Shown: piece after piece, positions 9,839 through 16,811 of the stretch
How positions within the stretch are numbered: the stretch's first letter is position 1
Layout of the letters: each line of letters begins with the position of its first letter
Assembly (NCBI GenBank): GCA_006218055.1
Contig: VBWD01000018.1
Coordinates: 1-64,000, forward strand
From: Gallionellaceae bacterium
GTDB lineage: Bacteria; Pseudomonadota; Gammaproteobacteria; Burkholderiales; Gallionellaceae
Direction of reading: 5' to 3'
DNA length: 64,000 nt
Notes under the pieces: generated by a model
The model's database searches: none
Told to the model about the DNA's origin: nothing
What the model saw: only the letters and a program-made list of their open reading frames with translations
Translations under genes and position numbers: made by a program

Positions 9839-10315
9839 TTATCTGTGATCCTTCACGGTCGGATCGTTGTAATGCTTATAGCTCAACTCCAGCGCTTTGA
9901 CTTCCGCCTCTAGATCGACCGTCTGCTTCTTGCCGCCCATCTCTATAACAAGACTGACTGGCACACGGTCGCCCACGTTCAACCTTTGCTTCAAGCCGTT
10001 CAACACCAGATAGATACCGCGATTTCCAAAGATGAGTGTGCTATTGGGGATGAGTTTCATGCTATCCACCGTGGAGGTCTCCATCTTGCCGTGGCGTTTC
10101 TCCACGTTCTGGATCTCTCCCGAGGTGGCGAGCGGACTACTCACCGACAGCAGACGCGCCGGTTTGGTCACGTAGAGATTCATCTGCACGGTGACGGACT
10201 TTTGCTCGGGCACACTCTCGCGCATCCACACCTTGTCCACCATCACATCGTTGGCGCCTGCCCATGCTTGGCTCGCCAACATCAACATCGCCAGACTCAG
10301 TAATTTACGCAACAT
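9839..10315 (-). CDS. Secreted PCuAC/DUF461-like protein lacking canonical copper ligands
   Basis: Signal peptide MLRKLLSLAMLMLASQAWAGA; VDKVWMRESVPEQ...GEIQNVEKRHGKMETSTVDSMKLIPNSTLIFGNRGIYLVLNGLKQRL aligns by eye with the downstream PCuAC, with the ligand positions substituted. Confidence 0.55.
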   Translation of the reverse strand: MLRKLLSLAMLMLASQAWAGANDVMVDKVWMRESVPEQKSVTVQMNLYVTKPARLLSVSSPLATSGEIQNVEKRHGKMETSTVDSMKLIPNSTLIFGNRGIYLVLNGLKQRLNVGDRVPVSLVIEMGGKKQTVDLEAEVKALELSYKHYNDPTVKDHR

Positions 10316-10334: not shown

Positions 10335-10799
10335 TCAATGATGATGCATATGTTCGTGGTGAGCGGATTCCGCCAACGGCTTGATCTTGGAGATCACTTG
10401 CACTTTGGTGTCCTTGCCATCGGCGCCGCGCACCACCATCTCACAGTTGGTCTTTTTGCCAGCCACGAGCGGCTTCTTCAATCCGATCAACATCAGGTGA
10501 TACCCCGCCTCACCCAGGTCCACCGCCTTGCCCGCAGGCAGTTCGATGGCATCCACTTGGCGCATCTTCATCAAGTCGCCTTCCATCACCATGCTGTGCA
10601 TCTCGGACATGTTCGCATCCTTGCAGGCGACGCCCACCAGTTTCGCCGCCTTCTTGCTGGTGATGACAAGTTGAATCATGGCGCCGTCTTGGCCGGGTGC
10701 GGTGGCACGAGTCCACGCATCGCTTACTTTCACATCCGCCGCATAGGCCGTAGTTGCAGCGCTCACCGCCAACATGCCAGCCATCAGAATTCTTTTCAT
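10335..10799 (-). CDS. Periplasmic copper chaperone PCu(A)C
   Basis: EMHSMVMEGDLMKMRQVDAIELPAGKAVDLGEAGYHLML matches H-X10-M-X21-H-X-M exactly; His-rich tail HHEHMHHH. Confidence 0.9.
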   Translation of the reverse strand: MKRILMAGMLAVSAATTAYAADVKVSDAWTRATAPGQDGAMIQLVITSKKAAKLVGVACKDANMSEMHSMVMEGDLMKMRQVDAIELPAGKAVDLGEAGYHLMLIGLKKPLVAGKKTNCEMVVRGADGKDTKVQVISKIKPLAESAHHEHMHHH

Positions 10800-10820
10800 G
10801 CTCTTCTCCATTAAGTTAAA

Positions 10821-10848
10821 ACGCGCCACACCTTGCGATGCGGCGCGT
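10821..10848 (-). terminator. Terminator downstream of the TonB copper receptor
   Basis: Stem acgcgcc / ggcgcgt; T-run on the minus strand after the stem. Confidence 0.6.
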
Positions 10849-10870: not shown

Positions 10871-12913
10871 TCAGAAATCGACGTTCGCCTTCACCCACAG
10901 ATTGCGGCCAACTTCATTGACGCGCGTGGTCTGTGTGAACCCGCTCACCATCGCTCCGGCGCGGCTGATGTGTTCCGCATACATCTTGTTGAGCAGGTTA
11001 TCCACACCGGCAGTGAGTTGCGCTGCCTTGTTGATGCGCCATCCGCCGTTCAAAGACAACACAGCAAAACCTTTCGAGGCGGCGATATCTTGCCCCGCGA
11101 TGTTGCCTTGGTTCACCGCTACGCGGTCTTGTGCTGCGACACCTCGCACCAATCCGCCGAACGACCACATCTTGTTGTCGTAATTCAGCCCCATACGCGC
11201 CTCCAGCGGCGACATCTGCCCCAACGCTGTGCCATCCGTATCGTTGTTGCCATGCACGTAGGCCAAGCTACCATCGACCTTGATGTACTCGGTCAGCTGG
11301 TACACGACGCCAGCCTCGGCGCCATAGGTCGACGCATCCACATTGCGAGTCACCTTCACTAAATCCATACCTTTGGCCACATTCGATTGGATCAGATTAA
11401 AGTCGGTGATCTTGCTGTAGAACGCCGAGACCGAAGCAGACAATGCTCCGCCACGGTGATTCATTCCTACATCTAACTGAGTCGTCTTTTCTGGCTTAGT
11501 GTTGAAAGCACTTGCTGTGGTCATGCTCTCGCTACTGAATAACTCCCAGTAGTCCGGTGCGCGCGAGGTTTGGCCCAGACCAACGTAGGCGGTATATCCC
11601 TCGTTCACATCCAACTCATAGCGAGCAAAACCGCTAGTCAATGTCTCTTTGCGCGTCTTGTTTGCGGTCGGATTCATCACTGAAGTCATCATGCTGCGCA
11701 TCACCATCGAACGCGCATCTGTCGCTTGCCAACTGTCTGCACGCAAACCAACGATGACACGGCTGGCATCCGAGACATCTTGGTGCAACTCACCAAACAC
11801 GCCGACATTTTTGAATTCAGCATCCTTCACGCGCGGGAGCAAAGTGTAATCACCCGGATTCATCATGCCAGCTGGGTAACCCGGCGCTGCTCCACTGCGA
11901 CCAGTATGAACGTTGGATTGCGTATCCACTCCCAACTTGAGCTGACTCACCTCAGCCAGATTCAACGTTCCAGCAAAATGTCCTCCCGTCGTCTTCCGAT
12001 CAGGATTCATCGCCGCCATGGCAGATGCCGGATTGCCACCCGCACGCAGGCTGTAACTATCCATCACGTGGTCGATGTAGTTGTAATACACCTGCGCTTC
12101 GATGCTATCCAACACACCGCCCATGTGCTGCTTATCGAGCTTCAGACCGACGTTGTCACGTGCGAATTTCGAGCCATCCACGCTACGGTCCGCATAAGCA
12201 GCCTTGCCATCACTCTTGGCGACAGTCAGCTCAAGGCGCGTATCGTCGCTTGGCGTCCAGCCCATCGCCGCATTCGCGCTCCAACGGTTGTACGCAGAGT
12301 GTACTGCGACGCCATTGCCATCTTTGTAGTCGTCCGCTTGCGAACGCGTCATCCCTGCGTACAAATAAGCTGAGTCCGAACTTACTTTCGCATTCACTGC
12401 CTCGTCATTGCGACCGAAGCTCCCCGCCATCAGGGATACACTACCCGAAAGCCCCGCCTCATCACGCTTAGTACTTCGTTCAAACAACACCGTACCTGCC
12501 GAATTACCCGCACCGTGAATGACGGTCTGCGGGCCCTTCAACACAGTGATGCTGTCGTAAGAGGAGGGGAACACATACGCCGTCGGCGGATCCATACGGC
12601 CGCCGCAACCACCCAATATCTGCTCGCCATCCAACAAGATGTTCAAACGCGAACCCGCCATGCCGCGCAACACCGGATCACCATCCGTGCCGCCTTTGCG
12701 GATGACGGAGAAACCCGGGATGGTCTTCAGATAATCCGCGCCGTCGTGCGCAGGAACCGGTTGGCGCGGCTTCTTAGGGTCTGTCTTCACGGTCAGCGGC
12801 TGTGTACTTTGCGGCGCAGTCACCACCACTTCGTCCATCGTCGTCGTTTCGGCAGCATAGGTAGCGCCAGTCATCGCCATCAGTACAGCGGCTACGATCA
12901 TCTTTTGTTTCAT
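10871..12913 (-). CDS. TonB-dependent copper receptor, OprC/NosA type
   Basis: MDEVVVTAPQ TonB box region; GGTDGDPVLRGMAGSRLNILLDGEQILGGCGGRMDPPTAYVFPSSYDSITVLKGPQTV plug with CxxxM; beta-barrel C-terminus ending in F. Confidence 0.9.
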   Translation of the reverse strand: MKQKMIVAAVLMAMTGATYAAETTTMDEVVVTAPQSTQPLTVKTDPKKPRQPVPAHDGADYLKTIPGFSVIRKGGTDGDPVLRGMAGSRLNILLDGEQILGGCGGRMDPPTAYVFPSSYDSITVLKGPQTVIHGAGNSAGTVLFERSTKRDEAGLSGSVSLMAGSFGRNDEAVNAKVSSDSAYLYAGMTRSQADDYKDGNGVAVHSAYNRWSANAAMGWTPSDDTRLELTVAKSDGKAAYADRSVDGSKFARDNVGLKLDKQHMGGVLDSIEAQVYYNYIDHVMDSYSLRAGGNPASAMAAMNPDRKTTGGHFAGTLNLAEVSQLKLGVDTQSNVHTGRSGAAPGYPAGMMNPGDYTLLPRVKDAEFKNVGVFGELHQDVSDASRVIVGLRADSWQATDARSMVMRSMMTSVMNPTANKTRKETLTSGFARYELDVNEGYTAYVGLGQTSRAPDYWELFSSESMTTASAFNTKPEKTTQLDVGMNHRGGALSASVSAFYSKITDFNLIQSNVAKGMDLVKVTRNVDASTYGAEAGVVYQLTEYIKVDGSLAYVHGNNDTDGTALGQMSPLEARMGLNYDNKMWSFGGLVRGVAAQDRVAVNQGNIAGQDIAASKGFAVLSLNGGWRINKAAQLTAGVDNLLNKMYAEHISRAGAMVSGFTQTTRVNEVGRNLWVKANVDF

Positions 12914-12971: not shown

Positions 12972-12986
12972 GCGGCATTTTGTCGC
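12972..12986. promoter_or_regulatory. Candidate RegA/RegR box GCGGCATTTTGTCGC
   Basis: Matches consensus GNG(A/G)C(A/G)TTNNGNCGC (as recalled from alphaproteobacterial RegR work) at all defined positions; lies between the divergent copper receptor and regB-like gene. Confidence 0.55.
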
Positions 12987-13024: not shown

Positions 13025-14467
13025 ATGAACTCCTCCCTACTTTCCACCCAGACGGGTCACTCTCATCTGCGCCGCTTGTTCATGCTGCGCAACTGGGCGA
13101 TCCTGGCGCAGTTCGCCACCCTGATCCTAGTGCATCGATTCCTGAGTACGGATTTCGCTTGGACGCCGATGGTCGGCACGGTGGTGTTCTTGGTGTTGGC
13201 GAACCTGCTCACGTGGTGGCGCTTGTCGCTTGACTATCCAGTGAGCAACCTAGAGTTGTTCTTGCAGTTGTGTCTGGATGTGAATGCGCTGACGGTGCTG
13301 CTGTATTTCGGCGGCGGCTCGACCAACCCTTTCGTCTCGCTCTATCTGTTGCCACTGGTACTCGCCGCCGCCACCTTGCCACGTCGATACACATGGGGCA
13401 TGGCCGCATTGACCGTCGCGTGTTACAGCTTGTTGATGGTGTGGTACGTGCCGCTTCCGACAGGGGATGCACATGCTGCTCATTCAGGTCATACAACAAC
13501 CGTCATCGCCGCGTCCGCTGTAACCGCCGCCCCCGTGCACGACCACACTGCGATGCAGATGGATCACAGCCAACATCAGATGCATCAGCCCGAAGTCACG
13601 CCGTCCGACTACTGCCGCACCGAACCAGAATCTGCACCCGCTAGCGCCAGCGCCGACACTTCCCCACTGGGTGATGCGTTCAATGCTCACGTGCTCGGCA
13701 TGTGGTTGGGCTTCGTCATCAGCGCGACAGTGATCGCCTATTTCGCGGTAGAGATGGCGGCTGCGGTTCGTTTGCGTGAGGCGCAACTCACCCAAGTACG
13801 CGAAGAAACTTTGCGTAACGAACGTATCGTTTCGTTGGGTACGTTGGCAGCGAGTGCAGCACACGAACTCGGTACGCCGCTCTCTACCATGTCGGTGGTG
13901 ATCGGTGAGATGCAGAACGAATGTGAATCGCCAGACCAAAAAGAAAGCCTCACCCTGCTCGACGACCAAGTGCGCAACTGCAAACGCATCCTCAACACCT
14001 TGGTGAACCATGCACAAGCGACACCGGAAGTGATGAGTATCGAAGGTTTTTTGTTGGCGGTATTGGACGAATGGCAATTGTTGCGCCCCACCGTGCATTA
14101 CCACTATCAAGTCGGCGGCCCCCAACCTGCGCCGCAACTACGCCCCTACCCCGCCTTGCGGGCAGCCCTGCTCAATCTATTGAACAACGCCGCCGATGCT
14201 TCCTCGGAGGGTATGCATATCCAGTTGCATTGGGATGACAAACACATCGTGCTGGAGATACAAGACCAGGGGCCGGGTCTCACCGTCGAGGCCGCCTCGC
14301 GTGCGGGTTCGGCTTTCTTCACCACCAAGGAGGAAGGGCGCGGATTGGGCTTGTTCCTCGCCAATGCCACGTTAGAGCGACTAGGCGGCAATGTGAGATT
14401 GTTCAACCGCGACGGCGGCGGTGCGACGACCGAAGTGACGCTACCCCTGCAAGGACTTCGTGCATGA
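13025..14467 (+). CDS. RegB/PrrB-type redox sensor histidine kinase with His/Met-rich loop
   Basis: FGGGSTNPFVSLYL (GGxxNPF quinone motif), SAAHELGTPLSTMSVV H-box, LDDQVRNCKRIL conserved Cys region, GLGLFLANATLERLGG ATPase; loop DAHAAHSGH...HDHTAMQMDHSQHQMHQ. Confidence 0.9.
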   Translation: MNSSLLSTQTGHSHLRRLFMLRNWAILAQFATLILVHRFLSTDFAWTPMVGTVVFLVLANLLTWWRLSLDYPVSNLELFLQLCLDVNALTVLLYFGGGSTNPFVSLYLLPLVLAAATLPRRYTWGMAALTVACYSLLMVWYVPLPTGDAHAAHSGHTTTVIAASAVTAAPVHDHTAMQMDHSQHQMHQPEVTPSDYCRTEPESAPASASADTSPLGDAFNAHVLGMWLGFVISATVIAYFAVEMAAAVRLREAQLTQVREETLRNERIVSLGTLAASAAHELGTPLSTMSVVIGEMQNECESPDQKESLTLLDDQVRNCKRILNTLVNHAQATPEVMSIEGFLLAVLDEWQLLRPTVHYHYQVGGPQPAPQLRPYPALRAALLNLLNNAADASSEGMHIQLHWDDKHIVLEIQDQGPGLTVEAASRAGSAFFTTKEEGRGLGLFLANATLERLGGNVRLFNRDGGGATTEVTLPLQGLRA

Positions 14468-15003
14468 GCCAGATCAACAACGACACCCCGACACTACTGT
14501 TAGTGGATGACGATGCCACCTTCCGCAGCGTATTAGCCCGCGCTTTGGAAAAACGCGGCTTCAGCGTGTCCACGGCCGACAGCGTCGAGACAGCATTGCC
14601 GCTGGCACAAGCCAACCCACCCGAGTTCGCCGTCATCGACCTGAAGATGCACGGTGCCTCCGGCTTGGTGCTGGTACAGGCCCTGCATGAACTCGACCCC
14701 GCCACCCGCATCGTCATGCTCACCGGCTACGCCAGCATCGCGACTGCGGTGGAAGCCATCAAACTGGGTGCGACGCAATATCTGTCCAAACCCGCCAACG
14801 CCGACGAGATCGTTACTGCCTTCGGCCATAACGCCAACCCCGATGTGCCAGTAGAAGCCCAGCCCGCCACCGTAGACAAACTGGAATGGGAACACATCAA
14901 CCGCGTATTGCACGAGCAGCAAGACAACATCTCCTCCACTGCGCGCGTCCTCAATATGCACCGCCGCACCTTGCAGCGAAAATTGGCAAAACGTCCCTTT
15001 TAA
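14464..15003 (+). CDS. RegA/PrrA/ActR-type response regulator
   Basis: LLLVDDDATFRSVLARALEKRGF... receiver and EHINRVLHEQQDNISSTARVLNMHRRTLQRKLAKRPF Fis-type HTH; ATGA overlap with the kinase gene. Confidence 0.92.
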   Translation: MSQINNDTPTLLLVDDDATFRSVLARALEKRGFSVSTADSVETALPLAQANPPEFAVIDLKMHGASGLVLVQALHELDPATRIVMLTGYASIATAVEAIKLGATQYLSKPANADEIVTAFGHNANPDVPVEAQPATVDKLEWEHINRVLHEQQDNISSTARVLNMHRRTLQRKLAKRPF

Positions 15004-15084: not shown

Positions 15085-15948
15085 ATGAAGCCGTCTATCG
15101 ACCTGAAAAAGGCCATCCAAAATTTGGATAGCCTGCCTGCCATGCCCGTCATCGCGCAGAAGATATTGACCTTATCTCTGGACACCGATGAAGGTGAGTT
15201 GCAACTGCTGAAACTCATCGAGAAAGACCCGCAGATGTCTGCGCGCATCATCGGGCTTTCCAACACGCCACTGTTTGGCGCCTCGAAACAAGTCACCTCC
15301 GTCCAAGATGCCTCCATGTTGCTGGGCCTCACGCGGGTGAAGTCGGTCGCCGTCGGTATCGCAGTGATGTCCTCCATCTCCAAACAGTCCACTGGCCTAT
15401 TGGATATCCAACATCTCTGGCTGCACAGCTTGGGCGTCGCGCTGGGGATGCGAGTGATCTCGCGTGCCATGCCTAGCCGTACCCGTCCGCTTGAGGATGA
15501 GATATTTCTTGCCGGATTGCTGCATGACATCGGCTACATGGTACTGAACCATCTGGATATGCAACTCAGTGATCGCCTGCATCAGAAGTTAGCAGCCGAA
15601 CCGGATCGCCCCGTTTCCGAGGTGGAAGCCGAAGTGATCGAGGTCAGTCACGCCACACTGGGGGCAGAGTTGGCACGCCATTGGGACTTGCCAGATCGCA
15701 TCATCGCAGTGTTGCGTTATCACCACACACCCGATGTCGAGGAAGCCGCCGCAGGACAGCCCCTGATCGCGCTCATCAACTTGGCCGAGAAACTATTGCC
15801 CAGTTTCGGCATCGCTGAAGTGGTGGACACCAACATCAGCGATGAAGATTGGCTCGCGCTCGGCATCGAACCTGAACGTGCCGACGAACTATCCGCCGCC
15901 GTGCATGAACAGGCGGAACAGGCTAAACAACTTGCCAGCAACTTTTAG
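15085..15948 (+). CDS. HDOD domain protein (copy 1)
   Basis: LDSLPAMPVIAQKILTLSLDTDEGELQLLKLIEKDPQMSARIIGLSNTPLFG...AGLLHDIGYMVLNHL. Confidence 0.9.
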   Translation: MKPSIDLKKAIQNLDSLPAMPVIAQKILTLSLDTDEGELQLLKLIEKDPQMSARIIGLSNTPLFGASKQVTSVQDASMLLGLTRVKSVAVGIAVMSSISKQSTGLLDIQHLWLHSLGVALGMRVISRAMPSRTRPLEDEIFLAGLLHDIGYMVLNHLDMQLSDRLHQKLAAEPDRPVSEVEAEVIEVSHATLGAELARHWDLPDRIIAVLRYHHTPDVEEAAAGQPLIALINLAEKLLPSFGIAEVVDTNISDEDWLALGIEPERADELSAAVHEQAEQAKQLASNF

Positions 15949-15950
15949 CC

Positions 15951-16811
15951 ATGACCACGGCGGACGATCTCAGGCTTGCTGTACGCGATCTGAACAACTT
16001 GCCAGCGATGCCGGTCATCGCGCACAAGTTGCTTGCATTGAAACTGGAGACGGATGAAGGCGAACGGCAGATGATGTTGCTCATCGAGCAAGACCCTCTC
16101 ATCTCCGCCAAGATCATCGGCTTGGCCAACTCTCCCCTGATTGGTGCGTCACGCAAGATAACCACGGTGAAGGAAGCCTCTCTGCTCCTTGGGCTGAAAA
16201 AGGTGAAGTCTGTCGCCACCGGCATTGCGATGATGACGTTGGTGAGCAAACCCATCGGTCGCTTCGATCCGCAAGAGTTCTGGCTGCACAACATGGCCGT
16301 AGCTTTTGCCATGCTGCCCGTGGTGCGCGCAATGCCACCCGAGCTACGTCCTGCAGACGACCTGATCTTCCTCACCGGCATGTTGCACGACATCGGATTC
16401 CTCGCCTTGGCCCATTTGAACGACCAACTCAGCGATGACCTTCTCACCCGCATGCTCATCGAACCTGAACGCCTAGTGACGTCGATAGAAGATGAATTGA
16501 TGGGCATATCGCATGCCGAACTGGGTGCCGAATTCGCACAGCACTGGGGACTGCCTAGCGAGATCGTTGCCGTGCTGCACTACCACCACACACCCGATGC
16601 AGCAGGTGCTGATGAGGGTTTCCCGCTGGCACGCATCATCAATGTCACCGAGAAGCTGCTCAGTTCGACCGGACTGCATGAGTTCGTTGGTTATCAAGTG
16701 AGCGACGAGGAATGGGCGGCGCTGGGCATCGACCCAGATGATGCGGAAGAGATCACATCACAAGCTGCCGAACAGGCCGATCAAGCATTGCAGTTCGCCG
16801 CGACTTTCTAA
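15951..16811 (+). CDS. HDOD domain protein (copy 2, tandem paralogue)
   Basis: LNNLPAMPVIAHKLLALKLETDEGERQMMLLIEQDPLISAKIIGLANSPLIG, collinear with copy 1. Confidence 0.9.
   Translation: MTTADDLRLAVRDLNNLPAMPVIAHKLLALKLETDEGERQMMLLIEQDPLISAKIIGLANSPLIGASRKITTVKEASLLLGLKKVKSVATGIAMMTLVSKPIGRFDPQEFWLHNMAVAFAMLPVVRAMPPELRPADDLIFLTGMLHDIGFLALAHLNDQLSDDLLTRMLIEPERLVTSIEDELMGISHAELGAEFAQHWGLPSEIVAVLHYHHTPDAAGADEGFPLARIINVTEKLLSSTGLHEFVGYQVSDEEWAALGIDPDDAEEITSQAAEQADQALQFAATF

Follow-up and report, generated by a model that had tools for sequence, protein, structure and literature searches.

The locus described here raises the question of whether a redox sensor kinase of the RegB type, encoded beside genes for copper uptake, has itself become a copper sensor, or whether it places copper supply under redox control and nothing else. 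A sequence-only reading of the window, by which we mean the whole 64-kb stretch of DNA analysed, had proposed that a His/Met-rich loop of the kinase senses periplasmic copper. The host genome is of Sideroxydans type (Gallionellaceae), and Sideroxydans metagenome-assembled genomes provide relatives at 91–94% identity.

A β-type RegB/RegA pair

The kinase gene (13025..14467, +) encodes a RegB/PrrB/ActS-family sensor histidine kinase of 480 aa, in which six predicted TM helices are followed by the DHp and catalytic domains (PF00512, PF02518). Its best NCBIfam match, NF033792 (ActS/PrrB/RegB), scores 244 bits and thus lies below the curated cut-off of 350 bits, as do the β and γ RegB members as a group; the α members lie above it. 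Missing this cut-off excludes an α-type equivalog and leaves the wider RegB family open to the kinase. The RegB hallmarks on which the earlier reading relied are all found in the open reading frame. The quinone-site motif GGGSTNPF (residues 96–103; 13310..13333, +) lies between helices 3 and 4, and its G97, G98, N101 and P102 show no variation among 64 homologues. The phospho-acceptor His280 of the H-box HELGTP (13862..13864, +) is invariant among homologues, and Cys319 in RNCKRIL (13979..13981, +), the counterpart of the redox-active RegB Cys265 of R. capsulatus, is nearly so. In an AlphaFold model made with the 64 homologues there are six N-terminal helices, the long sixth continuing into the DHp domain. 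Foldseek matches in the PDB were to cytoplasmic kinase cores only, with none for the sensor region.

Membership of the czcS/silS/copS family was considered and rejected: the architecture has six TM helices, and the 25 best NCBIfam matches of the kinase do not include TIGR01386. A TIGR01386 copper sensor kinase above the cut-off is present in one of six genomes searched (G069), and no kinase of the window's own assembly, which is 71% complete, exceeds that cut-off.

The regA gene (14464..15003, +) overlaps the end of regB by 4 bp and encodes a RegA/PrrA/ActR-family response regulator with a REC domain (PF00072) and a Fis-type HTH (PF02954); its best match is NF033791, with 205 bits against a cut-off of 250. 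On these sequence features, we take the kinase and its partner to be a β-type RegB/RegA redox two-component system inside a copper-delivery locus. Two tandem HDOD-domain genes lie 3′ of regA (15085–15948, + and 15951–16811, +), and in several related loci, too, regA is followed by genes for HDOD-like proteins, often a pair.

In the open-access literature we found no paper that links RegB to PCuAC or OprC, or that describes a loop such as the one discussed below. The broader statement of the earlier reading, that no involvement of RegB with copper is known, has to be qualified, as RegA of R. capsulatus is copper-responsive: it binds copper, and its Cys156 forms a disulfide (PMC9147068). A column check places Gln in the window RegA at the position of Cys156, directly upstream of the HTH. 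This column holds Cys in the α sequences and a few others, and mostly His, Asn or Gln in β and γ sequences. The published copper route is therefore closed to this RegA; copper action through Cys156 is ruled out, and any copper input would have to lie elsewhere.

Copper-delivery genes divergent from regBA

In the window, oprC and two PCuAC genes are transcribed away from regBA, which corroborates the copper-gene neighbourhood noted earlier. The OprC/NosA-type TonB-dependent copper receptor (10871..12913, −) scores 720.8 bits with TIGR01778 (cut-off 472). It keeps the OprC copper ligands CxxxM (C103xxxM107) and HxM (H282xM284), and both are present in 31 of 31 relatives scored. Next to it are a PCuAC periplasmic copper chaperone with an HxM ligand motif (HLM) and a His-rich C-terminal tail (10335..10829, −; PF04314, 96.6 bits), and a second protein of PCuAC fold without HxM ligands (9839..10315, −; PF04314, 61.8 bits). 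In this paralogue HxM is replaced by Y-x-V in the window and by Y-x-T/M/S/V/A in relatives, and throughout the Sideroxydans group the ligand-less copy still adjoins the intact one.

The linkage of PCuAC to regBA is conserved through the Gallionellaceae, a divergent PCuAC being present near regBA in nearly all loci with enough flank, short-loop ones included. In seven Gallionellaceae genomes the regBA-linked PCuAC genes (one or two copies) are the only PCuAC genes found; their distance from regB is within about 3 kb in six of these genomes and about 7 kb in G046. It is mainly in the Sideroxydans group that oprC lies between PCuAC and regB. In group 1 systems senC is co-transcribed with regBA (PMC9147068); a crude scan for the CxxxC motif detected SCO/SenC near regBA in only three of the order-level loci (L170, L185 and L196).

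The control of bacterial copper acquisition, unlike that of export, is poorly known (PMC6769254). CrtA operons, which may include PCuAC, have been tied to haem-copper oxidases (PMC12914433), and OprC of P. aeruginosa is reported to be under CueR (PMC7558416); no link to RegBA is reported for OprC/NosA or CrtA in these two works.

A RegA-type palindrome between oprC and regB

The 111-bp oprC–regB intergenic region contains a RegR/RegA-type palindrome, GCGGCATTTTGTCGC (12972..12986), which is the sole perfect match within the 64 kb to the RegR box GNGRCRTTNNGNCGC as quoted in PMC5506826. Searches of the same region for sigma-70 promoters and terminators found none. We counted GCGRC-N5-GYCGC at up to 200 bp upstream of regB, with expectations from dinucleotide shuffles. 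It is present in 35 of 44 Gallionellaceae loci against 4.4 expected, mostly at −50 to −55. Among the other β loci it occurs in 7 of 12 linked (0.7 expected) and 24 of 41 unlinked ones (3.3 expected), and among α and γ loci in 2 of 42. A tighter form, GCGRCANNNTGYCGC, is 2–7 times as frequent as its reversed control in six genomes. Intergenic palindromes with AT-rich spacers are found in related genomes upstream of cydA and of genes for cytochrome c, cytochrome b561/c′ and TonB receptors, a gene set that looks as expected of a respiratory regulator; none was seen near ccoN among the perfect matches.

The conservation upstream of regB, the genomic excess and the copies at respiratory genes together suggest that the palindrome is the site of RegA and that RegA autoregulates. 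As RegA of At. ferrooxidans binds promoters without a recognizable motif (PMC5506826), the palindrome is only predictive of RegA binding. From its position we infer that oprC may be controlled from it as well. In G046 and G089 regB retains the palindrome though its divergent neighbour is not oprC/PCuAC; where another gene is divergent from regB (L036, L078) the site stays beside regB, and in L036, the one case checked, there is no perfect palindrome by PCuAC. Thus, the site may serve regB alone. Control by RegA of both regBA and the divergent copper-delivery operon according to respiratory redox state is the most likely arrangement.

The TM5–TM6 loop in the window

Between its last two TM helices the kinase has a His/Met-rich loop of 73 aa (residues 146–218; 13460..13678, +) with 8 His and 3 Met, and a ninth His (NAH) opens TM6, in agreement with the earlier count of nine His and three Met. 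Residues ~140–213, between helices 5 and 6 of the AlphaFold model, have a pLDDT of 37–49 and are predicted to be disordered. An N-in topology, with the kinase domain inside, would put loops 1–2, 3–4 and 5–6 on the periplasmic side, which is why both this loop and GGGSTNPF are predicted to lie there; the six-helix model is in keeping with the location first suggested for the loop. By bulk composition its enrichment in His and Met is moderate (11/76, P = 0.003, one test). With this composition the loop probably binds copper, although a His/Met-rich loop could bind Cu, Zn, Ni or Ag. The residues are concentrated in a core, HDHTAMQMDHSQHQMH (13538..13585, +), of an MDHxxH type that is kept in most Sideroxydans-group loops. 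The loop also has a single cysteine, in DYCRTEPE (13613..13615, +), which is conserved in the long-loop subset only; in this D(Y/F)CRTEP motif it could be a metal ligand or form an intersubunit disulfide.

Conservation and tolerance of the loop among relatives

The TM5–TM6 loop is short and His-poor in α-proteobacterial and Pseudomonas-type homologues, while all Gallionellaceae loops examined bear His or His/Met, so that the comparison bears out a lineage-specific feature. Within the family the loop varies from 8 to 108 aa and takes short (HNHQHDGDSA), intermediate (GGHAQHAPAAMQQMDHTHHHMESAP...), long (window-like) and Met-rich forms (L044, L111, L115). Outside it, L184 is extreme in Met and His, and L140, L152 and L186 are His-rich. 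Short His-only loops (HNHQHDGD, HDHSKH) are common in β RegBs, with or without copper linkage.

In the 36 Sideroxydans-group loops, M[DN]H occurs in 24 (1.0 expected from shuffles) and [DN]Hx(x)H in 25 (2.5 expected), counts that are inflated through shared ancestry and for which a comparison of residues within loops is the fairer control. Between alignable loop pairs of this group, retention is 0.72 for His, 0.67 for Cys, 0.61 for Met and 0.47 for all residues other than these three. The concentration of His and Met in the core, and the extent to which relatives keep it, far exceed chance.

The flanks of the core behave differently. One relative carries a REP-type repeat in frame in its RegB loop (L037 339–1904; L076, G105:C92, about 920–970). 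The loop there holds NPHPSPLPQVEG, which is coded by a dispersed repeat with many copies in the same and related genomes; its pattern has 12 matches in G105 and a reversed control pattern has 0. The loop of L039 has another long insert of different sequence that looks similar in kind. As shown by the REP insertion and the range of lengths, the core flanks tolerate insertions, and part of the loop appears to behave as a tolerant linker. The earlier reading had held a freely varying, linkage-independent linker to be incompatible with sensing: the variation in length and the insertion agree with such a linker, and the conserved MDHxxH core does not.

The main rival to a copper-sensing loop is a linker that buffers metal or is simply tolerated. 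In its full form this alternative is plain RegBA redox control of oprC–PCuAC, in which RegB senses quinone/redox only and the loop is a hydrophilic stretch whose His and Met are incidental or buffer metal. It would account for the intact quinone and Cys motifs, for loops of any length from 8 to 108 aa, one with a REP insertion, and for the several families in which linkage occurs without rich loops. It does not predict that His should be the best-retained loop residue, that the core should so far exceed shuffles, or that His/Met-rich loops should recur in β families when those of α and Pseudomonas-type RegBs are short and His-poor. We regard it as rather unlikely, although a serious competitor.

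Loop richness and copper linkage

The sequence-only reading supposed that the insertion is coupled specifically to oprC/pcuAC, which would make RegB a copper sensor with copper uptake as its main output. Strict co-occurrence of a rich loop with copper linkage was rejected, since plain loops are found in linked loci and rich loops in unlinked ones. PCuAC-linked regBA with plain loops occurs in other β families (L148, L150, L160, L164, L168, L170, L176, L185), and L140, L152, L184 and L186 have His/Met-rich loops without PCuAC linkage. Among the 102 rows of known neighbourhood, loops with at least 6 His plus Met are commoner in PCuAC-linked than in unlinked rows (17 of 48 versus 4 of 54), and oprC adjacency is largely limited to the long-loop Sideroxydans group, both of which would fit a sensor dedicated to copper uptake. 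However, the association disappears at a threshold of at least 3 His plus Met, and phylogenetically independent pairs on a 141-row tree are 2–3 concordant and 0–1 discordant, informative pairs being few. Several close Sideroxydans relatives, moreover, keep the rich loop beside a different TonB-dependent receptor or without oprC. Some tie between this loop and copper-gene linkage may exist, but a sensor bound in this way to oprC/pcuAC is improbable.

A His/Met pair at the outer end of TM6

The loop leads into TM6, whose outer end reads F219-N-A-H222-V-L-G-M226-W (13679..13705, +). H222 is present in 112 of 118 β rows and 0 of 30 α rows, and M226 in 116 of 118 β rows; both are absent or rare in α-type RegB. 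A copper motif of CcoA has the same HxxxM spacing (PMC8406296). That H222 and M226 serve copper is conjecture; they may just as well have a quinone or structural role. The near-invariance of H222 in β RegBs, and the wide distribution of short His-only loops regardless of copper linkage, would also suit a different signal, such as pH, Zn, Ni, haem or quinone access, with the copper linkage reflecting the respiratory regulon of RegA only. The Met-rich loops (L044, L111, L115, L184) would instead point to Cu(I) or another soft metal, and we consider a different signal very improbable.

Relation to known systems

The pair shares domain order, six TM helices, GGxxNPF, the H-box and the redox Cys with RegB/RegA, PrrB/PrrA, ActS/ActR and RegS/RegR, and on the regulator side the Fis-type protein, the RegR-type palindrome and global respiratory control. 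It differs from them in the long His/Met-rich TM5–TM6 loop, in having divergent PCuAC/oprC in place of senC, in scoring below the NCBIfam equivalog cut-offs and in the Gln of RegA. As in the copper-responsive RegA system of R. capsulatus (PMC9147068), RegBA is tied to copper and to oxidase genes; there, cytoplasmic copper acts on Cys156. As far as the open-access literature goes, this is a real, previously undescribed variant of a known system. To the earlier reading the analysis adds the palindrome of the oprC–regB region, the linkage to regBA of the sole PCuAC genes found in seven Gallionellaceae genomes, and the Gln at the RegA Cys position.

E. coli CusS senses copper through a disordered His/Met loop together with His/Phe close to the membrane (PMC10100754). 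The logic proposed for the window kinase would resemble that of CusS/CopS/CorS, with a membrane-proximal His/Phe on the periplasmic side and a disordered His/Met loop. The sensor regions are, however, not homologous, those of CusS/CopS/CorS having two TM helices and a large periplasmic domain, and these kinases work with OmpR-type regulators that drive efflux rather than uptake.

A model for copper delivery under respiratory control

In the model we propose, RegA would bind the palindrome, autoregulate regBA and control the divergent oprC–PCuAC operon, so that respiratory redox state would set the copper supply for terminal oxidases. One switch may in this way tie copper supply to respiration in an iron-oxidizing family: if a redox regulator governs the outer-membrane copper receptor as well as the sole PCuAC genes, respiratory state would bear directly on the copper supply of the oxidases. 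With less certainty, the loop might capture periplasmic copper, perhaps handing it over to the membrane-proximal H222–M226 pair, and the captured copper might bias RegB between kinase and phosphatase, reporting copper sufficiency back. Such an input would add to the retained quinone and Cys inputs of RegB.

For a RegBA variant that has copper delivery to respiration under its control and the loop as a plausible copper-modulated input, we see the case from sequence as evenly balanced. That copper binding alters RegB output is plausible, with the balance somewhat against it. More tentative is the fuller proposal that Gallionellaceae RegB is a dual sensor of membrane quinone redox and periplasmic copper, in which a repeatedly re-evolved loop feeds the β-specific F-x-x-H-x-x-x-M atop TM6 and RegB sets the expression of the cell's sole PCuAC genes as well as, in Sideroxydans, that of the OprC-type receptor. 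If the loop does sense copper, a redox kinase that is among the best studied would have gained an extracytoplasmic metal input, a possibility that the naturally graded loop lengths open to experiment.

Further palindromes in related loci

Two other loci encode an exported protein of roughly 345 aa without a Pfam match (L218 904–1935 and L221 858–1898, starting ..ACACGCGIFDVG and ACAACGCTL.., respectively). A RegA-type palindrome lies 90–100 bp upstream of this gene, the product of which may be an outer-membrane protein under RegA control. The genome from which the window comes has a RegA-type palindrome at about 1589 of L229 (G000:C30), located between the gene of an Rrf2-family regulator, NsrR-like by eye, and that of a divergent small membrane protein.
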